From a virus, in IMG/VR virus record IMGVR_UViG_3300009610_000015, positions 1 through 48,705 of that record: DNA of 48,705 nucleotides; one strand, written 5' to 3'. Both the position numbers and the translations under genes were made by a program. This document shows, piece after piece, positions 6,426 through 31,695 of the stretch (position 1 is its first letter; each line of letters starts with the position of its first letter). A model generated the notes under the pieces. That model made no database searches. It was not told the DNA's origin and worked only from the letters and a program-made list of their open reading frames with translations.

Positions 6426-6865
6426 TGTGGCCGTGGAGTAAATTTGCTCGGTTGGAGGCCGAAATTGTTCGCCTGAAGAACGATTTACGGTCTGCCGAGA
6501 TGACATACACGGGCTACATGGCTCAAAACATGAAATTAGAGGACAGAGTTCGAGCTTTGGAGGCAGATGAGCGGGAGATTCGTCTCAACCTATTGCGCCG
6601 ATCCGGTGTCCTCCCCTCCGAGGCCCATATCGACGCCAAAGAGCGTGAATTTAAGCCCGTAAAGAAGACTGTGATTCCTTGGTCACAGCAAGCTGCCCGA
6701 TTAGAAGCGGATTCCAAGGAAAGATACTGGAAAAAGCAGATAGAATTGAGGGAACGGCCTCAGGAGGCTCGAAAAGGCGCATTAAATAATCCCGATGAGC
6801 CTGTTTCTGCTCAAGCAGATTACGATAGGGATTTGATGGAACTAGAAGATGTTTCCTCCAGCTGA
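6425..6865 (+). CDS. Coiled-coil protein, 146 aa
   Basis: I start at the ATG at 6425, which overlaps the upstream stop (TGATG); a GTG one codon earlier is an alternative. It opens with a WPW motif and a heptad-like helix of about 50 residues (LEAEIVRLKNDLRSAE onwards), then a charged helical C-terminal half. The end overlaps the portal gene by 17 bp. Placed directly before the portal, it may be a packaging or portal assembly factor, but no homologue is recognised. Confidence 0.75.
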   Translation: MWPWSKFARLEAEIVRLKNDLRSAEMTYTGYMAQNMKLEDRVRALEADEREIRLNLLRRSGVLPSEAHIDAKEREFKPVKKTVIPWSQQAARLEADSKERYWKKQIELRERPQEARKGALNNPDEPVSAQADYDRDLMELEDVSSS

Positions 6866-15174: not shown

Positions 15175-17036
15175 GCCTCCGAGACCACGAGCCGATTTCG
15201 TTCAATCAGTTCCGCGGCACTTTTGACCGGGGGGAGGACGAGTCTGTCCCCCCGGGCTTTTTCAAAGGGTCGAGGAACATCCAGTTCATCAATCAGGGGA
15301 TTAAGACGAGGGATGGTTCTGCAATCGATACGGCGGAGACTGGACCTATCCGACGAATCGCTATTTATAAGAGAATCGGCGAGGTCGCGCGCCTCCTGAT
15401 TCTCAACAACGCTGGGGTCCTCTTTGACTCCATAACTCACACAGCAATTCTTACCATCCCGGCCATGTCTGACTTCAGCATGGTCAGCATGTTCAACCGA
15501 GCTTACATCACTCCGCACAATGGCCTCCGTGGTCTCCCGGGAGAAAAGTTATATGTGTATGAAGGGTCAGGAGTTGCACGACCTGCGGGAGGAACAGCTC
15601 CGCCTCCAACGGGAATGCAGGCAGCAGAAGGAGTTGCGGGAAACTTCGACCCGGGAATTCATCTTTTCGCAGTTGCGTTTGAGACTGCATCAGGATACAT
15701 TACGCCTTTCGGCTCCTCCTGCGCTATCTCCTCCACGACCGGAGGAAAGAAGATAGATCTTTCCGCCATCCCAACTGGGCCTCTAGGAACTGTCGCGCGT
15801 GTTTTGATGGGAACGAAGGATGTAGCAATCAATGGGGTCTTCTCCGGGGACTTTAACAACCAGACTTGGTATGTAATCCCGGATGGACGGATTCCAGACA
15901 ATTCTACAACCGTTAAGACCGTAAGCTATTTCGACGCCGACCTCCAGTCAGACATTTCCTACCTCTCAGAGCAGATGGGGTCTATCCCTGCTGGAGTAGG
16001 AGTCAACATCTATCGGGGCCGCTTAATTATTTGGGGTGAAGATGTCAACGAATCAATCGTTAGAGCTTCCGCCATTGGACAGCCGGAGTCCTTTGACGAG
16101 GCCGATGGCTTCGTTACCATCAATCCCGGCGATAGTGGCGGTGGAGTCCGATTCTGCTTCGAGTATCGAACTCAGCTTATTTGTTGCAAATCTCAGCGAT
16201 CCTACATTACGCAGGATAATGGAGATAATGCAGGAAGCTGGAAAGTTGACGCTCTCGATAAGAGTGTCGGGACCGAATGTCACGGAGTTGGAAAAATTCT
16301 CGACTTTGGCGAGGACGTTCGAGACCGCGCCTTCATCGCAGATAGGAGTGGGCTTCAGCTTTATACTGGAACTTTCTCCGACACTGAGGTCACCAGCAAC
16401 ATCTCCGACGTCTGGGACCGAATAAACAAGGCGGTTTTCCACAAGGTCGAAGTAGCTGTAGATCCTTTGAAAGGTTTGACCTACGTCGCCTGCCCTCTGG
16501 ACGTAGCAACGGAGAACAATGCCATCATCGTCGTGGACTGGTCAGAAGGTTTGACCGTCGAGGATATCAGGTTCACCATTTGGGAGTTCCCTTATCGGCC
16601 TCAGACTGTAGTTGTCGATGTGAACGAGGCGGATAAGGAATCCGTCATGAAGTTTGCTGGCCTCGACTCCATCAACGTATTCAAGATAGTGGAGAATCTG
16701 AAGCTCGACAACAACCTCGCTATCGATACGTGGGTGGAGTTCCCTCTCCTCCCGCAAGACGACGACTGGCCTGTAAATCACTTCACCGGATTTCGCGCGC
16801 GAATTAAGGGGGTTGGCTACCTCCTGATAAACCTCACGAGCCTTGACGACGCACAGCAGGTTGTAGTGCCTCCTGTAACTCTGAATCCTCAGCCCGGACG
16901 CCCGCTTTTCCGAGGTTTCAATTTCACGTCGGAAAGATGCTCCGTGAAATTAAGGACTAACCAGAGTGGGAACTACTTCATGATGACGAACTTCAACTTG
17001 TATTACAAGCTCCTCTGGTCGACCCGAGCTGAGTAA
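15171..17036 (+). CDS. Large beta-rich tail hub/nozzle protein, 621 aa
   Basis: ATGA-coupled to the upstream gene. The whole protein is beta-strand rich, with repeated blade-like segments (for example GVRFCFEYRTQLICC, AFIADRSGLQLYTG and YVACPLDVATENNAIIVVDW), suggesting a beta-propeller as in podovirus nozzle or stabilisation proteins. Following an adaptor and preceding the fibres, it probably forms the short tail tube or nozzle. No enzymatic motif seen. Confidence 0.65.
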   Translation: MSLRDHEPISFNQFRGTFDRGEDESVPPGFFKGSRNIQFINQGIKTRDGSAIDTAETGPIRRIAIYKRIGEVARLLILNNAGVLFDSITHTAILTIPAMSDFSMVSMFNRAYITPHNGLRGLPGEKLYVYEGSGVARPAGGTAPPPTGMQAAEGVAGNFDPGIHLFAVAFETASGYITPFGSSCAISSTTGGKKIDLSAIPTGPLGTVARVLMGTKDVAINGVFSGDFNNQTWYVIPDGRIPDNSTTVKTVSYFDADLQSDISYLSEQMGSIPAGVGVNIYRGRLIIWGEDVNESIVRASAIGQPESFDEADGFVTINPGDSGGGVRFCFEYRTQLICCKSQRSYITQDNGDNAGSWKVDALDKSVGTECHGVGKILDFGEDVRDRAFIADRSGLQLYTGTFSDTEVTSNISDVWDRINKAVFHKVEVAVDPLKGLTYVACPLDVATENNAIIVVDWSEGLTVEDIRFTIWEFPYRPQTVVVDVNEADKESVMKFAGLDSINVFKIVENLKLDNNLAIDTWVEFPLLPQDDDWPVNHFTGFRARIKGVGYLLINLTSLDDAQQVVVPPVTLNPQPGRPLFRGFNFTSERCSVKLRTNQSGNYFMMTNFNLYYKLLWSTRAE

Positions 17037-18508
17037 TGGCCGAGATTGATACCCAAGCGCTTCTCGGAGACATTGAGTCCGAGCTCCGTAAGCAGCACAT
17101 CGATGTTCAAGGGCTGATCCAGGGAATCCAGCTTGAGAACCCACGGCTCTATCAAATCCTGATGGAGCTGAACGGTGGCCTCCTCTCTGTCCAGGAAGAA
17201 ATCTTCCCACTCATAATTAAGGATAGGCTCCCGACCAACATCGGTGAGATCCTCCTACAGCCCGCTTCGTTCACCTTTGCGTTCCAGCCGACCTCTGTCC
17301 GGTTCTTCTGGAGCGAAGTTCCACAAGCATACGGTTATGAGATTCGGGAAGGGATGCTTTGGGACACTGCAACTTTCCGGGTTCGAACTGCCTCCCTCCA
17401 GGTCGACTTGGACCCTTTGCTCACTGGCTCCTACTACTTCCTCATCAAGACGATAAACGTAGCAGGGGAATACTCAGTCGATGCTCGTTCTGTCCTCGTC
17501 GATGTGCCTGCAATCTCGGCGGTAGTTCTCGCGCGCGAGGTTATTGATAACAACGTCCTCCTACGTTGGACTCTCCCGACTTCGACGTTTAGGATTTTGC
17601 ATTACGAGGTTTCCAAGGGTTCTGTTGTTGCTGGCCTCGTAGACTCCAACTTCTTCGTGGTTTTCGAGAACGTCGCAGGCACCTACGTATATTCGGTTGT
17701 TGGGATAGATGTAGCGGGAAACCGCGGCCTCCCAGCGTCGATTACGGTGCAGGTTGCCTCGCCTCCTGATTACGCGCTACAGGATAAGAGAATCTCTCGG
17801 CTTCTTGGACCGAAAGAGGATATACTGAGGATTCCACCTTTAGAGTCTCTAGTCAATCCGGTCCTCCTAGGGCCTTGGTTCTCTACGACCTGGGAGCAGC
17901 ACTTCGTCAATAACAATTGGGAAGATATCCAGGACCAGCTGGAGGCTGATTACGTCATCTACATTCAGCCTACCGACCTCGATGGAAAATACGAGGAATA
18001 CATAGACTACGGAACGGTGATCAGCAATGTCATCGTCACTGTAGCTTTCAATTTCAATCTGCACGTTCAGGATGTTGCAGTCATCATTGAGATGTCTAGC
18101 TCCCTGGATAATGCAAACTGGACTCCTGTGGTGACAGGTTCTAGTCAGTATTTCCCAACCATGAGGCATCTGTTCATTAGGTTGAAGTGGACCGCATCAG
18201 ACGACCGAGCTTTGCTGGAACTCTGGAATCTTAGCATCTCCATCTCGGTTAAGAGAGAGAACGATGGTGGTGAGGTTTTCGCAACTTACAACACTGTTGG
18301 AGATCCGGGCACCTACGTCACATTTAAGAAGCCTTTCAAAGACGTGGAATCCATCACTTGCACCACAAAGACTACTACAGAGCCTTACTATGCAGTCTTT
18401 GACTTCCAGGATATTCCAAATCCTGTTGGTTTCTACGTCTGGGTCTTCGACTCCTCGGGAAATCGAGTGAAGCAGACTGTTGATTGGAAAGCTCGGGGTA
18501 TCGTCTAA
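17036..18508 (+). CDS. Fibronectin-type-III tail protein, 490 aa
   Basis: TAATG-coupled. The N-terminus is helical (residues 1-60). Two FnIII-like beta sandwiches follow (about 75-155 and 158-240), recognisable by the VRFFWSEVPQAYGYEIR and VLLRWTLP strands and the Y-Y-F-IKT-N-AGEYS / Y-YSVVGIDVAGN ends. The second half is another beta-rich domain, perhaps a carbohydrate-binding sandwich. Likely a tail-tip or fibre-base protein that contacts the cell surface; receptor unknown. Confidence 0.75.
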   Translation: MAEIDTQALLGDIESELRKQHIDVQGLIQGIQLENPRLYQILMELNGGLLSVQEEIFPLIIKDRLPTNIGEILLQPASFTFAFQPTSVRFFWSEVPQAYGYEIREGMLWDTATFRVRTASLQVDLDPLLTGSYYFLIKTINVAGEYSVDARSVLVDVPAISAVVLAREVIDNNVLLRWTLPTSTFRILHYEVSKGSVVAGLVDSNFFVVFENVAGTYVYSVVGIDVAGNRGLPASITVQVASPPDYALQDKRISRLLGPKEDILRIPPLESLVNPVLLGPWFSTTWEQHFVNNNWEDIQDQLEADYVIYIQPTDLDGKYEEYIDYGTVISNVIVTVAFNFNLHVQDVAVIIEMSSSLDNANWTPVVTGSSQYFPTMRHLFIRLKWTASDDRALLELWNLSISISVKRENDGGEVFATYNTVGDPGTYVTFKKPFKDVESITCTTKTTTEPYYAVFDFQDIPNPVGFYVWVFDSSGNRVKQTVDWKARGIV

Positions 18509-19980
18509 TGTGGCAGCGATATAATCAGGGAAGCCACATCTTCGAGAAGTCCCTCGACAACGGAGCGAGCTGGACTCCGATGATGATAAACCAGTCAAGC
18601 ATCGAGGGTATAGCTCCACTTCCGACGAATATTGCGTATACGAATGTTCAGAATGATTTCACTCGTAGACAACGAATCACACCGGCTCCTGGAGATAGTC
18701 TGACACCCTACTATGCTCTAGAACTTGTTGGTGGGGCGGCGACTGGAGGAGATCATGCTGGCCTCGTATTCAACTCAACGGGTATGGCTGTTGACCAAAG
18801 GAAATGGCGTATTATTACTAATGCTGGTCTACTACGCTTCGAGCCTCTAAACGATGCAGAAAATTATACATTCGATGTTATAGTCTCTATAGACCGAGCG
18901 TGTTCCATAGTAGCAAGCGGTAATATCTCAACATCTGCTAGTCTTTATTCAACATATCATATCCTTGCGAGTAATGGAACTATTCGCTCGCAGGGTCCGC
19001 GTGGCACTCCTCCTGGGTCTGGTGGTGGTATTGAGCTGTTCTTTCAGTCTGGGCTTGGGTATCTCCATTGTTACGACATAACTACTGGAGGATATCCGCC
19101 AATCATTATAGCCGGTGGCTCAGTGGACATCCAATGTGCATTGACCGTTGGTGGCATTACTGGTAGTGCTCATATTCAGTCTGCTGCTCATATGGCTTGC
19201 AGCACTCTCTACACTAGAAATGGCACCTTCGTTATGCCAGGTCGTGTCGATGTTGCTGATGGTGGCATTCAAGGCTCATGGTATCTTGGGTCACATCCCG
19301 CATATGGTCTGTATTCCAATACCGGATTGTATCTCGCTGGAGGATTGACGGTAGCAGGCGGGGCGAGCTTCGGTGGCTCGCTGACATTTCCTGCGAATGT
19401 GTGGCACCTTAGCAGTGATGGAATCCAACGTCTCTATTTTGGGTGGGGTAGTCATACATACATAAAAAGTTACGCTAACATTTATTTTCGAGGAGGTAAT
19501 ACTGATACGGAGATCCTCACTATCTTTGCAGGTGGAGAGGTGCAGACACCTGGTGGCGTGAAGGCGATGGCATTTGGTTGCAAACCGGGTATGTATGCTG
19601 CTCCGACAGGGAGCTGGTTCAATTTCAATTGGACCGGGAACGTCCAAGTCTGGATTGATGCAACCTACGTAGGAGATATTGTCTTTTCCGACTCACGCCT
19701 CAAGCGAGACTTCACACCTCTGACGAGCAGCCTTGATAAAGTGTTGAAGATGCGTCCTGGCTCGTTCTATTTTCGAGATGGTGTTGATGCTGCTCCACGT
19801 CTACGTCTCGGATTGCAAGCACAGGATTTGGTAGAGGTCGCCCCGGAGTTAGTTCGTCAGACAGACCTACCAACAGAATTGACCCCGGACGGCACTTATC
19901 AAATTGATTACACTGGAATGATACCTATGCTCGTTGCTTCTATTCAGGAGCTAGAGCAGCGTGTGAGCAAACTGGAGTAA
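18508..19980 (+). CDS. Tail fibre with S74 auto-cleaving chaperone, 490 aa
   Basis: I start at the ATG at 18508 that overlaps the preceding stop. The shaft is Gly/Ser/Ile-rich beta structure. From about residue 390 a peptidase S74 intramolecular chaperone begins: SDSRLKRDFTPL (Ser394, Lys399), then FYFRDG, LRLGLQAQDLVEVAPELV and a final coiled coil (ASIQELEQRVSKLE). In this family the chaperone trimerises the fibre and then cuts itself off just before the conserved Ser. The receptor-binding spike of the phage is probably this protein. Confidence 0.88.
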   Translation: MWQRYNQGSHIFEKSLDNGASWTPMMINQSSIEGIAPLPTNIAYTNVQNDFTRRQRITPAPGDSLTPYYALELVGGAATGGDHAGLVFNSTGMAVDQRKWRIITNAGLLRFEPLNDAENYTFDVIVSIDRACSIVASGNISTSASLYSTYHILASNGTIRSQGPRGTPPGSGGGIELFFQSGLGYLHCYDITTGGYPPIIIAGGSVDIQCALTVGGITGSAHIQSAAHMACSTLYTRNGTFVMPGRVDVADGGIQGSWYLGSHPAYGLYSNTGLYLAGGLTVAGGASFGGSLTFPANVWHLSSDGIQRLYFGWGSHTYIKSYANIYFRGGNTDTEILTIFAGGEVQTPGGVKAMAFGCKPGMYAAPTGSWFNFNWTGNVQVWIDATYVGDIVFSDSRLKRDFTPLTSSLDKVLKMRPGSFYFRDGVDAAPRLRLGLQAQDLVEVAPELVRQTDLPTELTPDGTYQIDYTGMIPMLVASIQELEQRVSKLE

Positions 19981-20334: not shown

Positions 20335-20527
20335 ACAACCGAAAGAACTGCCACGTCAAGAAATCACCCTTGAGGAACTCTACCAGGTCGTAGGTGAGCT
20401 AGAGATCGTTCGTCGTAAGTTCTCTCAGCAGCTTCAACAGCTCTATACTCAGGTCGACGAGATGGCGAAAGAAATCGCTAATCTGAGGAACAAAGATGGC
20501 GGACTGGTCAAAGCCGACAATAACTAG
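20327..20527 (+). CDS. Short coiled-coil protein, 66 aa
   Basis: Starts at the ATG at 20327 within the end of the previous gene. After a Pro-rich N-terminus nearly the whole chain is one heptad-patterned helix (LEELYQVVGELEIVRRKF then QLYTQVDEMAKEIANLR). Probably a trimeric or dimeric coiled coil of the tail. Overlaps the next fibre gene by 32 bp. Confidence 0.65.
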   Translation: MPEQPKELPRQEITLEELYQVVGELEIVRRKFSQQLQQLYTQVDEMAKEIANLRNKDGGLVKADNN

Positions 20528-21122
20528 CAATTACGTCACCTTCGTCGATGAGGTGAAGGATCGTGATTTCGACGCTATTAGTCTGCAATACAACGCGCTC
20601 GTAAACCCTCCGAACGCCTCGGTGAAGCTCGTCCGCTCTCCTGTCAAATTCCAGCAATGGATGACGGGGGCGTGGAACGAGCTGACCCTTTCGGTCGAGG
20701 GAGGAGGGACTGGGCAGACCTCGATCGCAGGGTTCCGCACGAGCCTTGGCCTCGGGTCAATGGCCTACCAGAACTCCAACGCTATTGCGGTCACAGGCGG
20801 GACGATCGCTAACATCACGTCTGGTGGTAGCTACTTCAACCATCAGGGCGGGACGATGACGATTCTCCAGCCTACGATAGCGGGTCATGCACTCACGATC
20901 AACGGACCTGCTAATGGATACCATGCCCTCCTAATTTCATGCCCGGCATCTGTTGGTCATGGTGTCCATCTTCAAGCAGGATCTTCTCATAACGACTGGC
21001 CGCTTCGTATTATGAATTACAATGCGACCGTCGAAATCATGAGGGTAACGGGTGCAGGATCTACTTGGATTGCAGGGACTCTTGCTATCCCTGTGGGTGC
21101 AGACAAGTGGGTTCCCTGGTAA
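20496..21122 (+). CDS. Tail fibre protein, 208 aa
   Basis: The N-terminus is mixed. From residue about 65 it shows the classic fibre repeat GGTGQTSIAGFRTSLGLG followed by SMAYQNSNAIAVTGGTI, then a Gly/His-rich beta shaft. This is the trimeric beta-fibre style of phage side-tail fibres. It ends with a short W-P-W. Directly upstream of the His-Xaa-Asn repeat protein, so the two may be adjacent parts of one fibre. Confidence 0.8.
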   Translation: MADWSKPTITSNYVTFVDEVKDRDFDAISLQYNALVNPPNASVKLVRSPVKFQQWMTGAWNELTLSVEGGGTGQTSIAGFRTSLGLGSMAYQNSNAIAVTGGTIANITSGGSYFNHQGGTMTILQPTIAGHALTINGPANGYHALLISCPASVGHGVHLQAGSSHNDWPLRIMNYNATVEIMRVTGAGSTWIAGTLAIPVGADKWVPW

Positions 21123-22058
21123 ATGGCTAAGCGACCAGGCTCCCTTTGGGTCGAAGGGAATAGCCTTAACTACGTAGACGCATATGGTAGGGAGTGGTCC
21201 TATGCTGGCGTCTACATTAAGAACATAGGATGGGGTCGTCCTGGTTCTCTCTGGGTTGAGGGATACTATATCTTCTACATCGCGGAGTCGGGAACTCAAG
21301 TATTCCGGTTACAAGCGACCTGGAATGGAGAGTATCACGGTAGGACTGGTTCCATCTGGGTCGAGGATTGGGCGCTTCGGCACATTGGAGGAGGAGAAGC
21401 TGCTGAATTCTGGGCGCACGATAACCTAGCTCATACAAACGTAACGCATGTAGATACCGGAATCGCAACTCACACCAACACGCATACAAACGTAGCACAT
21501 AATAACATAGCGCACGTCAACTGGCACTCAAACGTAGCACACGTAAATTATCATACCAGTTACGAGCACGCCAATTATCACGGGAACACTCATACAAACG
21601 TCCCGCATACTGATGAGTGGGCTGTCTTGGAGCATGGGGATTACTACTCCCCAAATTACGGATATCCTGCGGCTGGTTCCTATCATCATGCGGACTGCAC
21701 GATTATAAGTCGAGGACAAGCCACTGGTCAGCATGGAGACCATTATGATGCACCTCCTAATACTCCAGCTCATAATGATGGTTACTACTTCAAGGATCAC
21801 TGTAACTTCCACGATAACCTAGCACACGCAAACAACCATTACGACTCACCTGGGCAGTCAGCGCACACAAACTACCACGGGAACACCGAGCACGTTGACT
21901 ACTGGACCCAGACGGCGCACTCAAACGCGCATGGGAATACGCATACGAACGTCGAGCATCAGGACGTTCCTCATGCGAACCATAACGACACGATTCACCA
22001 GAATGTGGCCCATGCGAACGTCACGCATCAGGATCAGCCTGTCCTCATAGGATACTAA
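21123..22058 (+). CDS. Fibre-like protein with about 34 His-Xaa-Asn/Asp motifs, 311 aa
   Basis: The N-terminal third has three repeats of about 35 residues, each beginning RPGSLWVEG or RTGSIWVED and then an aromatic strand. From residue 99 (His99) to the end, nearly every His is the first residue of H-x-N or H-x-D (HTN, HVN, HGN, HAN, HSN, HQD and so on), usually spaced 4-6 residues apart. The repeats are interrupted by a Tyr/Gly-rich stretch at about 160-200. It follows a fibre gene and overlaps the radical SAM gene by 1 bp (TAATG). Its regular His spacing suits metal binding, as in HxH phage spikes, and also suits a substrate for the downstream maturase, by analogy with HxsA His-Xaa-Ser proteins. 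The modification is inferred. Confidence 0.85.
   Translation: MAKRPGSLWVEGNSLNYVDAYGREWSYAGVYIKNIGWGRPGSLWVEGYYIFYIAESGTQVFRLQATWNGEYHGRTGSIWVEDWALRHIGGGEAAEFWAHDNLAHTNVTHVDTGIATHTNTHTNVAHNNIAHVNWHSNVAHVNYHTSYEHANYHGNTHTNVPHTDEWAVLEHGDYYSPNYGYPAAGSYHHADCTIISRGQATGQHGDHYDAPPNTPAHNDGYYFKDHCNFHDNLAHANNHYDSPGQSAHTNYHGNTEHVDYWTQTAHSNAHGNTHTNVEHQDVPHANHNDTIHQNVAHANVTHQDQPVLIGY
21417..22033 (+). repeat. Coding repeat region: H-x-N/D array
   Basis: Degenerate short repeats such as CACxCAAAC (HTN) and CATGCGAAC (HAN) run through this stretch, encoding about 34 H-x-N/D motifs. DNA copies vary at third positions, so the repeat is conserved at protein rather than DNA level. Confidence 0.8.
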
Positions 22059-23254
22059 TGACTGTCGAATATCTCCCCGTTGGTATCGCCTGCAATATCG
22101 CCTGCAAGTATTGCTATCAGGAAAGCCAAAGAGATGCAGGGAATATCAACATGCCTCGGAACTGGGAGAGAGTGCGCTCCCAGCTCGACCGCATTGGGGT
22201 CGACTTCGCAGTCTTTGGTGGGGAGCCTCTGCTGACCCCTATGGCTCACCTCGAAGAAGTGTTCAAATATGGCTTCGAGAAACACGGTAAGAATGGGATT
22301 CAGACTAACGGATCTCTCATCACCGACGAGCATATCGACCTATTTGATAAATACAAGGTCCACGTAGGCATCTCGATAGATGGACCTGGCGAGCTGAATA
22401 GTGTTCGCTGCACGAACGATTTGACAGAGAAAACAGAGAGCGCGATCAGGAAGCTATGTGATCGGGGAATCCCTCCCTCCCTCATTATGACGATCCACCG
22501 GGGGAACAATGATATTCCTGCTCTCACTCGCTGGCTTGATTCTCTTGCTCTACGAGGCTTACGCTACCTTAACTTCCACGAAATGGAGCAAGAGTGCGGA
22601 CAAACGGAACCCGCCCTCTCCGAAGCCGAAACCATAAGGAACTTCCTCCAGCTCTATGAGTGGTCGAAAGGGACGAAGTTCTGGATAAACCCGTTCGTCG
22701 ATATTCGTTCGCTCCTCACAGAGATGGAGCCAAGAGCCAACTGCGTCTGGCACGCTTGCGACCCCCAGACTACCGAAGCCGTTCAAGGAATCAATCCCGA
22801 TGGATCAATGTCAAATTGTGGTAGAGCTTATAAGGACGGCGTCAACTGGCTCAAGGCTGATACCCCCGGATTCGAACGCTATGTTGCGCTTTATCACACT
22901 CCTCAAGAACACGGCGGATGCGCAGGATGTAAGTATTTTGCTTTCTGTAAGGGTCAGTGTCCGGGCACTGCAATCGACGGAGATTGGCGAAACCGAAGCC
23001 TAGAGTGTCGTCTTTGGTATTCCCTCTTCGACGCCATTTCAGAGGATAACAAGGATCGACTCCTACCTCCTGAAGTTGTGAAGCAGAAGGAAGAGGCTCT
23101 GATGAATCGTTGGGCCTCTCCTCAGAACAACGAGCATGGGGACAAGCACGGAGATATTCCTCATGGCGACAAGCATGGGGATCATACGGATTACGGTCCT
23201 GGAGTTGAAGCTGTATTCTGCACCGAGAAACCAGAATGGTTACTGACAAACTAA
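22058..23254 (+). CDS. Radical SAM/SPASM peptide maturase, 398 aa
   Basis: The N-terminal radical SAM barrel has CNIACKYC (Cys12, Cys16, Cys19) to hold the 4Fe-4S cluster that cleaves SAM, and GGEP (54-57) for SAM binding. A full SPASM domain follows: Cys229, Cys234 and Cys254, then CAGCKYFAFCKGQC (288-301, the Cx2Cx5Cx3C signature) and Cys317, enough for two extra clusters. Enzymes of this class modify peptides or proteins post-translationally (thioether, C-C or epimer chemistry). The C-terminus (360-378) has five H-x-D motifs resembling the upstream protein. TAATG coupling to that protein and an overlap with the downstream methyltransferase gene suggest one modification cassette. Confidence 0.9.
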   Translation: MTVEYLPVGIACNIACKYCYQESQRDAGNINMPRNWERVRSQLDRIGVDFAVFGGEPLLTPMAHLEEVFKYGFEKHGKNGIQTNGSLITDEHIDLFDKYKVHVGISIDGPGELNSVRCTNDLTEKTESAIRKLCDRGIPPSLIMTIHRGNNDIPALTRWLDSLALRGLRYLNFHEMEQECGQTEPALSEAETIRNFLQLYEWSKGTKFWINPFVDIRSLLTEMEPRANCVWHACDPQTTEAVQGINPDGSMSNCGRAYKDGVNWLKADTPGFERYVALYHTPQEHGGCAGCKYFAFCKGQCPGTAIDGDWRNRSLECRLWYSLFDAISEDNKDRLLPPEVVKQKEEALMNRWASPQNNEHGDKHGDIPHGDKHGDHTDYGPGVEAVFCTEKPEWLLTN

Positions 23255-24603
23255 AGCGTCTTGATTTTACCATCCCGGACTTCTTCAGGACCATCTGGGT
23301 TTCTGAGGAAGCGAAGGATCTGTGGGAAGAAAGAATCCGCGCAATCGCTGCGAACTGGCCTTACATCGAGAGGGCAGCACTCCTTCATGGAGTAAGACCT
23401 GGAATTCTTCAATCTGTTCCTCCTATGGACCTCCCGATGGTTCAACATTGGGCTATGGAGAACAAGGTTCCAATGGTCATCCTAGAACTAGAGGGGGAGT
23501 CTGGTCTTTCCTACGGGAATGCTAGAATCCCCTATGAGCAGGGGAAGCCATTCACCTATCGGGTTTACTATGGGAAGGCTCCAGCTCATTTCCAGGGGTA
23601 TTGGAAGGAAGGAAATCAGGTAGCAATAGGTCGAGCACTTGGTTATCCTCCCTGTTGCATCGAATCCTTCAAGAAGCACTGGACGGAGGAGGGGTGGAGA
23701 GACCTCACCTACCACTCCTATGACGACCCGAATGAGAAGAACTTGATGTATAACAACGTGCTCCTCCGACAGCTCGGAGTCAGAGCCGTTTCACATCTGC
23801 CATGCACTATCTCATGTAGGCCATCCTGTAAGGTAGGGATGGATATGTTCGAGGTCATGGCGAAATGTGAGCATCAGACCGAAATCATAAACTGGATGAA
23901 GACCCTCTTGGCTATGCCGATGAAGTGGTCCTCTCTCCACGGAGTTGCCATCCTCACTACGCCTCTATTCAAGTTGATAAACGCGACCGACCCTCTCCCT
24001 TCTACCTCTGAGGTGAGTCTTGCCTCCGACTACTATCCTGAGGGTGGGGCAAGTGCAAACGTCTTTCCATTCCAGCAGGTTCGGCATCTGAAGTTCGCTA
24101 AGAGCAATGACTCCGACTTCCTGGATAATGGATTCGGTTCTCGGAGTTCGATGGTGGCTGCGCATCGGTTCATCCTCTCGATGCTACCTAACCAGATTGG
24201 GGGAGGTGTTATCGGTCGAGTTCTAGATCTTGGCTGCGGTAATGGACGCCTCCTGAAAGCTATCAAGAAGGAGCACCAAGAGGTAACACTCTATGGTGTC
24301 GATACCAAGGACATGGTCGGTGACACCTGGAATTTCATCCAAAGTGACATCTACGATTTCGAGTGGGAGGGAGAGTATCAGATAACCTTAATGTCTGTGG
24401 AGAGGTTACATGAGGTGAATAAGGAGCAGGCGATTGACTTGCTCCAGGCGATTAGTTCACATTCCAAGCTTCTCCTCCTATCCACTTACAATACGTGGAT
24501 GCATGGATTCGACGGTGAAATCAACAACCTGTTCTCCGTAGTCGCTGTCGGTGTTGATCCGGCCCTAGGCTACGAGGCCAAACTTCTAGAGAGGAAAATC
24601 TAA
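23236..24603 (+). CDS. Cys-rich DUF483-like domain fused to SAM methyltransferase, 455 aa
   Basis: Starts at the ATG 19 bp inside the radical SAM gene. Residues about 1-250 form an alpha/beta domain with GYPPCCIESF (Cys140, Cys141) and CTISCRPSC (Cys190, Cys194, Cys198), the arrangement I associate with DUF483; a metal or Fe-S site is possible. Residues about 300-455 are a class I methyltransferase: VLDLGCGNGRLL (motif I, 329-340) and an acidic LYGVD (352-356). The fusion and its tight coupling to the maturase suggest it acts on the same substrate, perhaps methylating it. The DUF483 call is moderate; the methyltransferase call is strong. Confidence 0.8.
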   Translation: MVTDKLKRLDFTIPDFFRTIWVSEEAKDLWEERIRAIAANWPYIERAALLHGVRPGILQSVPPMDLPMVQHWAMENKVPMVILELEGESGLSYGNARIPYEQGKPFTYRVYYGKAPAHFQGYWKEGNQVAIGRALGYPPCCIESFKKHWTEEGWRDLTYHSYDDPNEKNLMYNNVLLRQLGVRAVSHLPCTISCRPSCKVGMDMFEVMAKCEHQTEIINWMKTLLAMPMKWSSLHGVAILTTPLFKLINATDPLPSTSEVSLASDYYPEGGASANVFPFQQVRHLKFAKSNDSDFLDNGFGSRSSMVAAHRFILSMLPNQIGGGVIGRVLDLGCGNGRLLKAIKKEHQEVTLYGVDTKDMVGDTWNFIQSDIYDFEWEGEYQITLMSVERLHEVNKEQAIDLLQAISSHSKLLLLSTYNTWMHGFDGEINNLFSVVAVGVDPALGYEAKLLERKI

Positions 24604-25251
24604 ATGGCTTACGACTTGAATCGATGCCCGCAGACCGAATCCGACGCGCAGGACTACATCTTCACCCTTTTCAGCCGCACGATCGGTCAGCCCGCGAACG
24701 ACTGGGCGAGCGTAATGCAGAACACCAATCTGCCTCACAACGTCTACACACCTGGACTCAAGGCCGACGCGCTTTGGCCGATGTTCGGGTTCACTCAGAT
24801 GTGGGGCAGTGGTGGTCCCCGAGGGCGCATCTTCCTGCCGAGTCAGTCGTCCGACGACCAGGGTTACTACACGCGACAGATCCAGGTCATCGAGGACGGT
24901 CCCAATGGCGGCCTCATCTGGGCGTGGAAATACATCTCCGGATTCGCCTACTCGCCGGTCCAGGGAGTCTCGGAAGTGCCTCCCGGAACTGGTCCTCCTC
25001 CAGCAGTCATCGTCGGTGGCGGTCTGACCGAGGCTCAGGTTCAAGCGATGATTGACGACAGCATTCAGCAAGCTATCGCCAACTTCACCGGCGTCGTCTA
25101 CGGGGACAAGATTGCACTCCGAACGAACTCCGGCCTCCTTGCGGGTATTCTCGGTGGGGGACCAACCGTTCCGGATCAGGAAATCACGCTGATCGGCAAG
25201 GAAGGTGATCCTCACGCCTGGGAATCCTTCACGCTCGAAAAGGGTGAATGA
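24604..25251 (+). CDS. Hypothetical structural protein, 215 aa
   Basis: Starts right after the methyltransferase stop (TAAATG). Begins MAYDLNRCPQTESDAQDY. The N-terminal half is Trp/Gly/Gln-rich, a Pro/Gly linker follows (PPGTGPPP), then a helix (TEAQVQAMIDDSIQQAI) and a beta C-terminus. Composition resembles a tail or fibre accessory protein. The stop overlaps the GNAT start by four bases (ATGA). Could be part of the tail or a further substrate of the cassette. Confidence 0.7.
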   Translation: MAYDLNRCPQTESDAQDYIFTLFSRTIGQPANDWASVMQNTNLPHNVYTPGLKADALWPMFGFTQMWGSGGPRGRIFLPSQSSDDQGYYTRQIQVIEDGPNGGLIWAWKYISGFAYSPVQGVSEVPPGTGPPPAVIVGGGLTEAQVQAMIDDSIQQAIANFTGVVYGDKIALRTNSGLLAGILGGGPTVPDQEITLIGKEGDPHAWESFTLEKGE

Positions 25252-25631
25252 TTATCAGACCGTTCCAGGATTCGGATATGCTCGCCATAGACGAAATCTG
25301 GAAGAAGCACCACAGCAACGACTTTTCCGTCCCGAACCGTGAGACTCGCTTGGTCGAGTGGGTAGCCGAGGAGGACGGGAAGGTCGTTGCTTACGGGCAA
25401 GTCAAGCTCTTTGCCGAGGCTATGATAATCCTCGATAAGGATTCTTCGCAGAGAAATAAGGTAGAAGCTCTCAAGGGGCTTTTATTAGAGGCTTTTCGCG
25501 GCACGCAATCATCTGGGCTAGAAGATATTTACTGTTTCATCCGAGATCCTTCCTTCGCATCCATCCTCATCAATCATTTTGGCTTCGAGCTAGTCGATAA
25601 TCCTGGCGAACTTCTATTGAGGAAGGTGTAA
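25248..25631 (+). CDS. GNAT-like acetyltransferase, 127 aa
   Basis: ATGA-coupled start. The order of elements fits the GNAT fold: IIRPFQDSDMLAI at the N-terminus (strand 1 and helix 1), EEDGKVVAYGQV (strands 2-4), a central helix after SSQRNKVEALKGLL and a C-terminal HFGFELV strand. At 127 aa it is short and the acetyl-CoA loop is not a clear R/Q-x-x-G-x-G/A, so activity is uncertain. Typical GNATs acetylate proteins or small amines; here it may modify virion or host proteins. Confidence 0.6.
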   Translation: MIIRPFQDSDMLAIDEIWKKHHSNDFSVPNRETRLVEWVAEEDGKVVAYGQVKLFAEAMIILDKDSSQRNKVEALKGLLLEAFRGTQSSGLEDIYCFIRDPSFASILINHFGFELVDNPGELLLRKV

Positions 25632-26968: not shown

Positions 26969-28042
26969 ATGGGACTAATGGACTCGTATCGTCTCAATAG
27001 CATCATGGGTGGTAAGAGACTCGGCCCCTACAAGGGCAACTTTAGCACTCCCGACGCCCCCGAGACTCCCATCGGCCCAAAAGGGGTGAGCTTCCAGCAA
27101 CCGGAGATTCAGATCCCAACCGAGGATGAGGATGACTCGTCCAGATACTATCGGATGATTCAGGATATTCGGAACGAGCAGACGCCAGGAATGACGGCTT
27201 ACAAGACTGCCCTCCAGAACCGACCGCAGGAGGAGGAATATAAGCCAAATGCCTGGACTCGAACTGCCTCCGCCCTCTCTGGATTCTCTGCAGGTTTGAA
27301 AGATGCTGGCAAGGGAATCACTACTGCTATGGGTCTCAACAGGGAACCATATCGGAGGGCTATGGAGGAATACTCTGGTCAGCTCTCTGGGTTGGAAGAA
27401 CAGGCTGGGATGGAGCAGGACGAGCGGGAATCCCGGATGGAAGCAATTCGGGATGCCTCGAGGATGGGGCTGGAACACGAGAAGTTCCTGCAACAGGGAC
27501 AGCACAATCGGGCGCTTGAAGGGACTGCTGCGGAGAACGCTCGTGCGAACATCATGAGAGCGGAAGCCTCGACGAAGCCCACTTACGCTCTACACGCAAC
27601 ACAAGGTGGGTTCCTCGCGGTCAACAGTAAAGACCCGAGCGATACCAAGATGATTGCAGCCAAGACTCCTCAGGATGCACAACTTGAGATTTCTCGGATG
27701 AACGCCCAGACCTCTCGGATGCAAGCTAATACTTCTGCTGGAAATCTGACCCAGAGACAGAATGAGTTCGGGGTAAATACTGCCCTCGCTGGGACCAGAA
27801 TCGGACAGGCTCAGCAGCGAATTGATCAAGCCGAAGAAGGAAAGCTACCGACTCCTGCCTCACAAACCAGTGCGCGTGAGCTGGCTCTCGACAAACTCAT
27901 GGACCATCCGAAGTGGGGCAAATTCGTAGGCACCAAGGATGCTCCCAAGGGACCGGGAGACTTCTCTCCTCAGGAATGGCAGGCATACCAGACGGTCCTC
28001 AGAGCGTTGGAAGCTGAGATTATTGCAGGGGGAGGTTTCTAA
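26969..28042 (+). CDS. Internal virion protein candidate, 357 aa
   Basis: ATG at 26969 (MGLMDSYRLNSIMGG) is preferred over a longer in-frame start inside the previous gene. Mostly helical and hydrophilic, with Gln/Glu/Arg/Met-rich stretches (about 115-190 and 235-300), as in ejection proteins. It lies between the 444-aa and 1217-aa genes, and its stop overlaps the next start (TAATG). No domain recognised. Confidence 0.65.
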   Translation: MGLMDSYRLNSIMGGKRLGPYKGNFSTPDAPETPIGPKGVSFQQPEIQIPTEDEDDSSRYYRMIQDIRNEQTPGMTAYKTALQNRPQEEEYKPNAWTRTASALSGFSAGLKDAGKGITTAMGLNREPYRRAMEEYSGQLSGLEEQAGMEQDERESRMEAIRDASRMGLEHEKFLQQGQHNRALEGTAAENARANIMRAEASTKPTYALHATQGGFLAVNSKDPSDTKMIAAKTPQDAQLEISRMNAQTSRMQANTSAGNLTQRQNEFGVNTALAGTRIGQAQQRIDQAEEGKLPTPASQTSARELALDKLMDHPKWGKFVGTKDAPKGPGDFSPQEWQAYQTVLRALEAEIIAGGGF

Positions 28043-31000
28043 TGCCCCGAGGAGAAAGGCCAGTTCGTCGAAGTTTCGCTGAAATTGAGGCGGAGCAGAG
28101 TGCCCTCCTGGATAAATACCAAGCAGAGACAGGAGGGGAGAAATCTCTTTGGCAGAAGGCAAATACTCCTCTCTGGGATAAACCTGCTGAAGTAGGGGAG
28201 AATATTGCTCGCAGCATCGAAGGTAGTGGAGATAGTGTCTTCGACAAAGCTGGTTCGAGTTATGGCAGGAGAGTTGGAGCGAATGCTGCCCGAGTTATCG
28301 GAGGCTTAGGTTCTGGTCTCACCTCTCCTCTTGGGGTCGGAACTGTGGCTGCGACGGTAGCTTCGGGTGGAGCAGCTGCACCTCTCCTCGGGGAGAGTAT
28401 GGCAGCAGGCAGAGCTATCCCTATGATAGCTGGTCGTGTAGCCCAGGGAGCAGGAGTTCTTCAGACTGGACATGGTTTGGGAGAAGTGGGTGGGGGTCTT
28501 TCGGAGGGGGATTATCGGAGGGCTGGAGGCGGGCTTGCAGAGATAGGCTTTGGTGTTCTCGGGATGCGGAATCCTGGAGGAAAGCCTCGACCTTCTGCAA
28601 CTTCGAATGTGGGGAATGTTGGCCTTCAAGATATTGGAGCACTTCCTACAACGACTACTGGAATTCATGGGACTCCGATGGTCCCTCAGCCTCGACCTAT
28701 CGGTGGACCTCAGTTAGCTGGTGGTCCTCCTACTCTGACAACCCAGCCTCGAACGATCCCGATGCAGGGTCAGACCTCTAGAGTTCCACGCTATGGAAGA
28801 ATGCTCCCGGAGAATGCAGAAACACCTCCTCCTCTCCCGCAAAGCCAGTTGCCTGGGCCTCCCAGATTCAGGGCGGGTCCAGCAGGAGTCGAGCACCTCC
28901 CGGAGGCTCCAATTCAGGGTGTCGTAGAGAAGGGTCGAGTCTCTAATGTCTCTGCTGGGATGGGAGGGGCACGAACTCCTGAGAAGGAAGCGTTCGAGGC
29001 TTTGGTCCCTGACAGATATAAGCGGAGCGCGCAGGGAATCTCGGACGAAGGCCTCACTTACAACTGGAGAGGCGAGACTGTTGAGCCTCCGACTCCAGGG
29101 TTGCGTCTCAATCCTCAGGGACAGCTCCGGCCCGAAAAGGGCTTCAGCATGGACTTCCCGCAGATGGTCGATAAGTATGGCCTAGAGGAAGCTGCGGCTC
29201 GAGCGCGCGTGACTGAAGCGGAGGCTGCGAAGCTCCTCAAAGGAAAGCCGATAACTCCAGCAGCAAAACCGAAGGCAAAGTCAAAGTATCCTCCTCCGAC
29301 CAGAACGGGGCCAGCACCAAAAAAAGTTGAGGCGACACCCCCTGAAGTCATAGCGGCTGCAAAGAAACTGCAGGCAATGACCCAGAGGGAAGCTGCTCCC
29401 GTCGCCACTGCTGCTCCTGTTCAGGGGCCAAATCTGGGAGCGATGAAAACCTCTGAGCTTCAAGCTCTGGCAGCAGAAGGAAATACGCAGGCTGCTGACA
29501 TTCTGGTCAAGAGGGCAGCTTCTCCGAGACAACCGACCTCCCTCAAGGACCGGCTGGCAAACGCTATTCCAACAAGGTTGAAGAACGAAACTGGAGCGGT
29601 TGGGAGGGATATTGGGCCAATTACCGAAAGGCAGAGGAGGCAGGCTCTAGTTAGGGAGGCGAAGAAAAGAGTGGTAGAACCTCCTCCAGAGCCAATGGGT
29701 CCGGGTCGTGCTCCGATGGAACCTGGACCTGAGGTCGTCAGGGGACCGGAAAGAATGGCCCTCTGGAAGCGCATGAAGGATGAGACTGGAGCGGTGGGTC
29801 CGGGCACTGACGATTTGATGCGTCAGAGATCCGAACTAGCAGAGGAATTTGGGGAGGAAGGTATCCCATCGAGGCCTAGCTCTGACAATCCTGAATGGGC
29901 TGCTGATAAAGATGCGAAGTGGGCTAAATTCATGAAGGAGCAGGAGCTTCATGAAGATATGCAAAACTTCCAGAGACGGCAGGATTTAGCTCCGGAGAAG
30001 TTCGAGCAAGACATGGACTTCATGATGCGTGAGAATCCTAAGTTCACGCATGAAGAAGCGATGGATGAAATCTTCCGGCAGTTCAGAATCAATCAGGATC
30101 GAGTTCGGGATAGGGTCAGAAGGTTCCAGCCGGAGGCAAGGGGTAGTAATCGGGAGCCTCCCCCTTTCCGAGATGCAGAGGACTATCCTGGAAACAAGAT
30201 GCTAGCTCGAGACGAGACGGAGTTCAGAGGTCCGACTATCGAGCAGGGTCGAATGGTTCCGAACAAGGATTGGTATGCAAGTCAGGATACCATCGACCGC
30301 GCTCAGGTAGAGTCTGTCAAGAAGTATGGTGTCAGCAATCCGAAAGCAGCCAGCAGAAGTAAGCCTGTGGTATCTATTGATGAAGATGGGAACTACCAGA
30401 TTCTAGATGGGCATCATAGGTCAACCGCTGGATTGGAGACTGGTCAGGGTGTCGATTACCAAGTAGAGGACTGGTCTCCAAGGGACTCCTGGTTCCGTGA
30501 AGCTCGTGGGATGACGGAATACGACAGCCCATTTCGGGAGGCTGGTCAAAAAGAAGCTCGAAAGTTCCGAAGGGCAATGGATAACGCCGAATCTGACGAA
30601 CTTGGAGAGAGCCTCTATCAGCGTCTAGTTCGACAACTTGGTAAGAGTGAAACGGGAGCTGTAGGTAGGGACATTGGACCAATGGCTCGGGAGCAGGCGC
30701 GGATTAAGGCTGCAAGAGCTCAAGCAGCGGCGGGTGGAGCGAACAGGGGTCGGGTGCCGGGAGGAGGGAATCCACCTTCTCCGAGACCTGGAGCTTCTCC
30801 ACCTCCGGGAGGGCAGCCTCCTTCTACGGGTGCGGGAGCGGTTCCGAACAAACCAGCAGGGATTGGGGAGAAGGCGTGGAATGCGATGCTCCAGGCTAGA
30901 ATGACGGCGATGCTGTCAGGTCTGGCAATTCCCAAGTCGATGCTAGGGAACGTGGGAGCACACGCATTTGCGTCGATGGAGAGGAAGTCGATGAAACCTC

Positions 31001-31695
31001 TCCAGGAGCTTATGAATACGGGGGAAAACTGGAAGAATTTGAAGGCAGGATGGAAGGCGGGAGCTGTCACACCGGATGCTAACGACCTAGGGTTTGGTAA
31101 GTTCAACATTCCTGGTCGTGTCATGGGTGCATTTGATGAAATGTCGACGAAGAGCCTGCAAAGAGCGGGGATGACCGAAAAGGAAGCTAAGGAGATCCTC
31201 CTGACTTCTCCAACTACCTTCGGTAAATCCCTAGGCTTGCAGACTCCTCTTGGTAAGCTCCTGGTGCCCTTCCAAAAGACGCCCGCGAATACCATGAAGC
31301 AAGGATTCGAGCGCGCGTGGAAACACAAGGGTATCGGAGCCGGTGCAATCGGAGCTGGTGCTGCGATGGGAACGCAGACAGATGACCCGAAGAAAATTGC
31401 TTTGGCCTCCGCTCTGATGGGGCCATATGCTCTCCCGTTCCTCCTCGGTGCCCTACCGACCGCAGGTGAGAAAGCAGTTCAGGGATTCTCTCCCATACCC
31501 GAATGGTCGGTTCACAAATCGATCACGGACCCCTTTGCTCCCTTCCAGAAGCCAGGTTTTGCGCGGCTATTTGAGAAGAAGGGAGGAGATGCGAGTCTCT
31601 GGGGTAAGGAAGGGGATACGCGAATCTGGGAAAAGAAAAGCCCCGCCGGTCGGGCGAGGCCTAAGAGTTCCAACAGGCGCAGTCGGAGGGATTAA
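28042..31695 (+). CDS. Giant internal virion protein with ParB-like domain, 1217 aa
   Basis: The largest gene and the last of the late operon. Regions: a Gly/Ala-rich helical, membrane-like segment (about 70-180), a Pro-rich linker (about 215-310), mixed domains, a ParB/Srx-like domain (about 745-820, with VVSIDEDGNYQILDGHHRS), another Pro/Gly linker (about 900-940) and a C-terminal hydrophobic part (about 1095-1150, GAGAIGAGAAMGT and LMGPYALPFLLGALP). The motif ETGAVG(R)DIGP occurs three times (about residues 515, 580 and 870). Plausibly ejected to form the DNA conduit; the ParB-like part may act on DNA. The 3' end also encodes the minus-strand terminator. Confidence 0.7.
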   Translation: MPRGERPVRRSFAEIEAEQSALLDKYQAETGGEKSLWQKANTPLWDKPAEVGENIARSIEGSGDSVFDKAGSSYGRRVGANAARVIGGLGSGLTSPLGVGTVAATVASGGAAAPLLGESMAAGRAIPMIAGRVAQGAGVLQTGHGLGEVGGGLSEGDYRRAGGGLAEIGFGVLGMRNPGGKPRPSATSNVGNVGLQDIGALPTTTTGIHGTPMVPQPRPIGGPQLAGGPPTLTTQPRTIPMQGQTSRVPRYGRMLPENAETPPPLPQSQLPGPPRFRAGPAGVEHLPEAPIQGVVEKGRVSNVSAGMGGARTPEKEAFEALVPDRYKRSAQGISDEGLTYNWRGETVEPPTPGLRLNPQGQLRPEKGFSMDFPQMVDKYGLEEAAARARVTEAEAAKLLKGKPITPAAKPKAKSKYPPPTRTGPAPKKVEATPPEVIAAAKKLQAMTQREAAPVATAAPVQGPNLGAMKTSELQALAAEGNTQAADILVKRAASPRQPTSLKDRLANAIPTRLKNETGAVGRDIGPITERQRRQALVREAKKRVVEPPPEPMGPGRAPMEPGPEVVRGPERMALWKRMKDETGAVGPGTDDLMRQRSELAEEFGEEGIPSRPSSDNPEWAADKDAKWAKFMKEQELHEDMQNFQRRQDLAPEKFEQDMDFMMRENPKFTHEEAMDEIFRQFRINQDRVRDRVRRFQPEARGSNREPPPFRDAEDYPGNKMLARDETEFRGPTIEQGRMVPNKDWYASQDTIDRAQVESVKKYGVSNPKAASRSKPVVSIDEDGNYQILDGHHRSTAGLETGQGVDYQVEDWSPRDSWFREARGMTEYDSPFREAGQKEARKFRRAMDNAESDELGESLYQRLVRQLGKSETGAVGRDIGPMAREQARIKAARAQAAAGGANRGRVPGGGNPPSPRPGASPPPGGQPPSTGAGAVPNKPAGIGEKAWNAMLQARMTAMLSGLAIPKSMLGNVGAHAFASMERKSMKPLQELMNTGENWKNLKAGWKAGAVTPDANDLGFGKFNIPGRVMGAFDEMSTKSLQRAGMTEKEAKEILLTSPTTFGKSLGLQTPLGKLLVPFQKTPANTMKQGFERAWKHKGIGAGAIGAGAAMGTQTDDPKKIALASALMGPYALPFLLGALPTAGEKAVQGFSPIPEWSVHKSITDPFAPFQKPGFARLFEKKGGDASLWGKEGDTRIWEKKSPAGRARPKSSNRRSRRD
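31631..31660 (-). terminator. Rho-independent terminator of the minus operon
   Basis: On the minus strand GCCTCGCC pairs with GGCGGGGC (one G-U) around CGACC, followed by TTTTCTTTT. It lies 32 bp past the minus-strand stop at 31692, inside the last codons of the 1217-aa plus-strand gene. Confidence 0.85.

Follow-up and report, generated by a model that had tools for sequence, protein, structure and literature searches.

The locus analyzed here raises the question of what a viral radical SAM enzyme acts on when its gene follows, with an overlap of a single base, that of a fiber-like protein filled with His-x-Asn and His-x-Asp motifs. The window, i.e. the whole stretch of 48,705 bases that was analyzed, is an IMG/VR record that includes terminase, DNA polymerase, primase, and helicase genes and a weak match to a major head protein. 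An earlier note, made from the sequence alone, had inferred that the phage modifies its own fiber in a RiPP-like way. Our results support this inference, with the chemistry unproven: it is very likely that the enzyme modifies the repeat protein in some way, a conclusion inferred in the absence of chemical data. The relevant features of the window are the following.

17036-18508, + strand: host-specificity-type tail protein.
18484..19980, + strand: tail fiber with a Peptidase_S74 intramolecular chaperone (Pfam S74, E 1.4e-11; phrog_5668 tail fiber, E 4e-19).
20496..21122, + strand: short tail-fiber-like protein, 208 aa, upstream of the repeat protein (phrog_25747 tail fiber, E 5.5e-4; conserved in sister phages).
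21123..22058, + strand: repeat protein (putative substrate), fiber-like, 311 aa (ORF; relatives in phages phiMa and Cumys and in IMG/VR).
21135..21407, + strand: N-terminal carrier part of the repeat protein, three degenerate GSLWVEG...YVD.G.E repeats (from sequence).
21417..22034, + strand: H-x-N/D domain, 34 motifs (34/34 His kept in the sister phages L003 and L004).
22058..23254, + strand: putative radical SAM/SPASM maturase, 398 aa (Pfam Radical_SAM, E 1.5e-17; structure model; fold).
22091..22114, + strand: CNIACKYC radical SAM [4Fe-4S] motif with C12, C16, and C19 (invariant in a 31-member alignment).
22757..23008, + strand: SPASM cysteine set, C234 to C317 (invariant in the same 31-member alignment).
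23135..23191, + strand: substrate-like C-terminal tail of the maturase, HGDKHGDIPHGDKHGDHTD (sequence; tail counts in relatives).
23236..24603, + strand: third gene, DUF483-like domain plus class I SAM methyltransferase (weak Pfam match; relatives; model and fold search).

The S74 tail fiber gene located close upstream indicates that the module belongs to the cluster of tail genes. This context is shown; that the product of ORF 21123-22058 is itself a virion component is inferred from gene position only.

The repeat protein includes 38 His residues, 36 of them within residues 99-311. Thirty-four of these 36 begin an H-x-N/D motif (22 HxN and 12 HxD), and all 34 motifs fall in residues 99-304. 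Residue shuffling produced 7.2 +/- 2.2 motifs with a maximum of 16 in 10,000 shuffles, versus the 34 that are present. The fifteen-base DNA units that code for the motifs are each different, and Tandem Repeats Finder detected no array in the H-x-N/D region of the window. Simple DNA tandem repeats are therefore ruled out as the source of the pattern, and the repetition exists at the protein level.

The product of the next gene belongs to the radical SAM superfamily and to its SPASM subfamily, as both membership criteria are met. It has the CxxxCxxC motif and, by its fold, the TIM-barrel SAM domain, its Pfam Radical_SAM score is 64.7 bits against a cut-off of 29.5, it contains GGEP, and it has seven cysteines in the pattern C234-x14-G249-x4-C254, C288, C291, C297, C301, and C317, which fulfills the consensus Cx9-15Gx4C-Cx2Cx5Cx3C-C (C288xxC291x5C297x3C301). 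The integrity of the enzyme is thus shown. The closest solved structures by sequence are anSME (E 2.8e-30) and ChlB (E 1.1e-20), and the same two proteins are the nearest folds of a structure model of the enzyme (pLDDT 85.7; Foldseek E about 1e-15); identity to them is nevertheless only 16-19% and their substrate is different, and no sulfatase was found in the tail cluster of the window. The best-scoring curated models include AmcB (85.7 of 425 bits), YhhB, GrrM/OscB, and the dynobactin maturase DynA (75.4 of 450 bits). The enzyme passed no curated maturase model, and its relatives were likewise far under the cut-offs.

Residues 360-378 of the enzyme, at its C terminus, contain HGD/HTD motifs like those of the putative substrate. 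At least two HxD motifs were found in this tail in 56 of 66 viral relatives versus none of 50 outgroup SPASM enzymes, and 4 of the 30 close bacterial relatives have such a tail. The structure model shows it as disordered (pLDDT <50) and not docked, and for this reason we do not claim that the enzyme is its own substrate. In a locus near-identical to the window, L002 (IMGVR_UViG_3300012159_000003, 6691-6750), a stop breaks the frame of the radical SAM gene, owing either to an error in sequencing or to a defective gene copy.

The third gene codes for a DUF483-like domain (residues about 1-290; conserved residues C140, C141, H187, C190, C194, and H235) followed by a methyltransferase (residues about 290-455). 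Its match to DUF483 (PF04467), 23.9 bits, is below the gathering cut-off of 25, and 23 of 38 relatives matched this family at E<=0.001 (best 1e-7). When the model of the DUF483-methyltransferase protein was used in a fold search, only the methyltransferase half matched. A clear SAM motif is found in 46 of 99 complete DUF483 partners, so that the methyltransferase fusion is a property of many but not all of them. A DUF483-like gene was present in 62/66 viral loci, 30/30 bacterial loci, and 2/50 outgroup loci. The DUF483-like protein is likely a required second component; any specific role for it is inferred.

The earlier note had described about 34 H-x-N or H-x-D motifs from residue 99 onward, with almost every His in that stretch starting one, a one-base overlap with the next gene, and in the latter an intact CNIACKYC, GGEP, and a complete set of SPASM cysteines. 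All of these observations held: base 22058 is common to both ORFs, and the cysteines are invariant in 31 family members. It had overlooked the HGD/HTD tail of the enzyme and the third conserved gene (23236-24603).

The association between the two proteins was assessed starting from each of them. With only the window enzyme as query, eight IMG/VR loci were retrieved, one near-identical to the window, and all eight had an HxD/N repeat ORF with 30 to 51 motifs just upstream; in the five loci with enzymes at <=62% identity every motif was HxD. A profile search for viral enzymes rendered 66 distinct members after deduplication, of which 61 had a repeat ORF in the locus, versus none in an outgroup of 50 other SPASM enzymes taken from the same scan of genomes (1 with a relaxed cut-off). 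The profile was built from repeat-associated enzymes and the viral figure is therefore tilted toward a positive result; the search with the window enzyme alone is free of this bias but small. Among 30 close bacterial relatives, 13 had a repeat ORF nearby, or 19 with the relaxed cut-off, and the remaining 11 lacked any HxD protein in a range of about 7 kb, at that cut-off too.

For the opposite direction, loci were fetched using DNA patterns of four spaced HxD or HxN codon groups, without use of the enzyme; the HxN scan recovered chiefly unrelated loci and added little. ORFs in which a single motif spacing dominates (L036, L062, L079, and L421) were classed as simple repeats and kept apart. The count was restricted to distinct, irregular repeat ORFs followed by 1.5 kb or more of sequence (n=50); a radical SAM gene was found in the same locus in 44 cases (43 when counted on the same strand or nearly so), versus 2 of 208 pattern loci lacking a repeat ORF. 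The exceptions are L096, L130, and L425, which by eye resemble simple repeats and were kept in the count, one truncated locus, one fragment of 4 kb, and L334, a fragment whose 19 kb include 39 motifs but no radical SAM gene. A collagen-like 368-aa fiber with 13 motifs (the L063 type) had no radical SAM gene in its 64-kb record, and L091, a sister of this type, has a radical SAM gene at a distance of about 45 kb, next to other HxD/N proteins. The gene association is thus shown. The search for homologous pairs in other phages that the earlier note had proposed as a check was passed in both directions, and the outcome that it would have taken as a refutation, repeat proteins regularly occurring without a radical SAM neighbor, was not seen, with a few real exceptions.

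The repeat domain is found on several unrelated carriers: the GSLWVEG type is the largest cluster (53 of 86), followed by a type with a laminin-G tail protein among its members (9), phrog_8917/tail-fiber (7), collagen-like (5), and large (4) types, and singletons. It is therefore the domain and not a fiber family that tracks the enzyme, and the constant unit consists of the motif domain, the radical SAM enzyme, and the DUF483-like protein. This module is spread over many unrelated phages and some bacteria. A tblastn search in annotated phages identified enzymes 43-45% identical to that of the window in phiMa, Cumys, and phiLo. Every His in the repeat proteins of the cultured Thermus phages Cumys (54/54) and phiMa (53/53) is part of an HxD motif. 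Phage phiLo (L135, 9512-15368) has three adjacent giant HxD proteins, phiLo_135 to 137, with 55 to 101 HxD each and up to 104 HxD/N motifs; they adjoin baseplate wedge genes and are located a few kb from the radical SAM gene. Small HxD peptides with an apparent Tat signal are found beside radical SAM and DUF483 genes in two Chthonomonas MAGs (L142, 9131-9499, and L143, 9127-9498). Such a signal fits modification in the cytoplasm prior to export, and these peptides are possibly a non-phage exported product.

Motif statistics were obtained from 110 domains comprising 23,560 residues, in which 3914 of 4007 His (98%) belong to an HxD/N motif. At Asp/Asn sites without this His, position i-2 is occupied by F, Y, or W in 37.1% of the cases, versus 5-9% at other tested offsets (Fisher P about 1e-169, although the sequences are not independent; 80 of 94 domains show the enrichment). 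The roughly 6-fold enrichment at i-2 is composed of 8x for F, 4.6x for Y, and 4x for W, and I, L, V, and M are not enriched. Thr is 2-fold up at the same position, likely because it is often the middle residue in HTDN-type strings. When the window is compared to L003 and L004 none of the 34 motif His is lost, the Asp and Asn are frequently swapped but only for each other, and the middle residue varies. This pattern and its conservation are shown, and the rule that they define is aromatic-x-(Asp/Asn), the aromatic residue being mostly His and sometimes F, Y, or W. A fixed His, interchangeable Asp and Asn, and a variable middle residue suit a reaction at C-beta because Asp and Asn share this carbon.

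Enzymes that generate three-residue cyclophanes couple an aromatic ring at position i to the C-beta at i+2; with OscB the residue linked through its C-beta can be Asn or Asp, and with HaaB and YhhB the ring atom is C2 of His (PMC11002830). The repeat domains meet the substrate criterion of these triceptides, aromatic-x-x3 with x3 typically Asn, Asp, Ser, or Arg, and the triceptide enzymes XncB, OscB, MscB, YxdB, HaaB, and YhhB (PMC11002830) are likewise radical SAM/SPASM proteins with an aromatic-x-Asn/Asp or His-x-... motif. The system of the window differs from them in the large phage fiber with tens of motifs, the absence of an evident leader, the DUF483 partner, and the HxD-tailed enzyme. 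Since its scores are under all curated cut-offs the window enzyme is not filed in the cyclophane maturase equivalogs; we treat it as triceptide-maturase-like in action, which is an inference, and withhold a named family.

The agreement of the motif rule with that of the cyclophane enzymes, together with the best curated matches and the fold, leads us to propose ring-to-C-beta stapling. In this model the three genes would constitute a protein-maturation module. The radical SAM/SPASM enzyme would act on newly made fiber protein during infection, ahead of virion assembly, and its target sites would be the many aromatic-x-Asp/Asn motifs, with the ring of residue i becoming bonded to the beta-carbon of the Asp or Asn at i+2 and two hydrogens lost per motif. 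An otherwise featureless His/Asp-rich domain would thus become a chain of small rigid rings and a stiff, stable fiber. The DUF483-like protein, a near-constant partner, would be a second enzyme or a substrate handler, sometimes fused to a methyltransferase. The repeat as substrate, the bond formed, the stiffness of the fiber, and the role of the partner are all inferred. That the product is a three-residue ring-to-C-beta cross-link is an inference without MS or NMR data toward which the evidence leans modestly, and we favor the explanation as a whole by a similarly small margin. The lack of an evident leader peptide on the repeat protein, unlike most RiPP substrates, speaks against it. A bolder reading, in which the product is a virion-borne poly-cyclophane rod with tens of ring-to-C-beta cross-links per chain in phages, with exported relatives in bacteria, could as readily prove wrong as right.

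The alternative that survives best is that the same motifs undergo another reaction: formation of a C-N or C-O cross-link, epimerization or desaturation of Asp/Asn, or methylation by the fused methyltransferase. SPASM enzymes make several kinds of bonds in RiPPs, a C-N cross-link is among the steps by which dynobactin matures (PMC11002830), and the methyltransferase domain on many DUF483 partners (46/99 with a clear SAM motif) suits the methylation option. On the other hand, the strict aromatic residue at position 1 and the free exchange of Asp and Asn favor ring-to-C-beta linkage over other reactions, and epimerization alone would not need an aromatic residue two positions before. This alternative clearly trails the stapling model and is less likely than not, but it remains a real possibility. 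Sactipeptide or ranthipeptide chemistry was dropped as a candidate: with 64 Cys among the 23,560 residues the domains are almost Cys-free, and thioether chemistry is therefore unlikely.

A purely metal-binding fiber was already raised as an alternative in the earlier note. In this view the HxD/N motifs of an unmodified fiber would hold iron or zinc in a trimer, a role also suggested for HxH motifs in some phage tail fibers, and the radical SAM enzyme would do something else. His and Asp are metal ligands, and a tail fiber with HxH-type potential iron-binding domains has been described (PMC11705849), which shares with the present protein its His-rich fiber motifs. Here, unlike in the HxH fibers, the motifs are HxD/N with aromatic substitutes and there is a dedicated radical enzyme. 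The metal-binding explanation is weakened because Asn freely replaces Asp (22 of the 34 window motifs are HxN) and F, Y, or W replace His in register; moreover, the repeat domain tracks the enzyme over unrelated carriers. We consider it very unlikely.

The module of Cumys and phiMa has been published as an 'rSAM module' for which DNA modification was suggested (Kolesnik et al. 2024, Viruses 16:1410, PMC11437467). This proposal finds support in cyanobacterial homologs located near deazapurine genes (PMC11437467). Against it, QueC (PF06508) and TGT (PF01702) were found in 0 of 27 module-bearing records, some of them fragments, including the window, phiMa, Cumys, and phiLo (most control genomes in the same search gave matches), and the Thermus phages lack deazapurine genes according to the same authors (PMC11437467). 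DNA modification explains neither the co-inherited HxD/N protein nor the HxD tail of the enzyme, and is very unlikely to be the function of the module. Equally improbable is that the target of the enzyme is its own HxD tail or a different protein, with the fiber just binding the same partner through a shared docking motif, an idea that rests on the HGD/HTD motifs at the C terminus of most phage maturases, since the tens of motifs per fiber domain and the aromatic rule resemble a substrate and the tail is present in 4/30 close bacterial relatives, yet the repeat protein in 13-19/30.

The resemblance to His-Xaa-Ser (Hxs) systems, to which the earlier note had compared this locus, consists in the pairing of a His-repeat protein gene with genes for radical SAM maturases. 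The third residue here is Asp/Asn and not Ser, as the window protein has 1 HxS versus 34 HxN/D, and there is one radical SAM enzyme of a different family. HxsB (TIGR03978) was absent from the best 25 models for the window enzyme and far under its cut-off in one relative, L025 (42.1 of 370 bits), and HxsC and HxsD were not among the best model matches. Membership of the window system in this class is therefore rejected.

As a set of three genes the module of Thermus phages is already published, and the new element is the inferred substrate class. The Cumys/phiMa module has the same three genes; identity to the window proteins is 43-44% for the radical SAM enzymes and about 28%, along its length, for the DUF483 protein. 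Kolesnik et al. called the repeat protein unknown and did not mention HxD repeats in the text retrieved, whereas we identify it, by inference, as the likely substrate. The published proposal of DNA modification for a cultured phage is replaced by a different, testable one, and the DUF483-linked enzyme family gains a likely substrate. In the literature searched, the substrates described for radical SAM maturation were short peptides and enzymes, and no phage fiber was reported among them. Should the stapling model hold, carbon-carbon stitching would harden the receptor-binding apparatus of phages, with as many as about 100 cross-links in each chain in the case of phiLo, and would account for a low-complexity His/Asp domain working as a fiber. 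It would also mean that cross-linked protein rods can be genetically encoded, giving a new protein material with covalent reinforcement.

Several other observations were made in the window and among the relatives. Window positions 28042-31695 include a 1217-aa ORF with a weak ParB-like match (E 0.0045), and positions 25248-25631 a 127-aa ORF that resembles GNAT acetyltransferases by eye and has no confident Pfam match. A GSLWVEG-type HxD fiber with radical SAM and DUF483 genes is found in a Candidatus Diapherotrites archaeon MAG (L163, 6086-6976), which may represent an archaeal virus or a mis-binned contig. Very large bacterial proteins with a few C-terminal HxD motifs adjoin radical SAM-DUF483 fusion genes in L147 (8176-12195), L151 (3593-6994), and L166 (2681-6847). 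In L060 (10391-13315), a single HxD protein, in which FVN motifs are interspersed with HxD, is followed by a tandem pair of radical SAM genes of the family.
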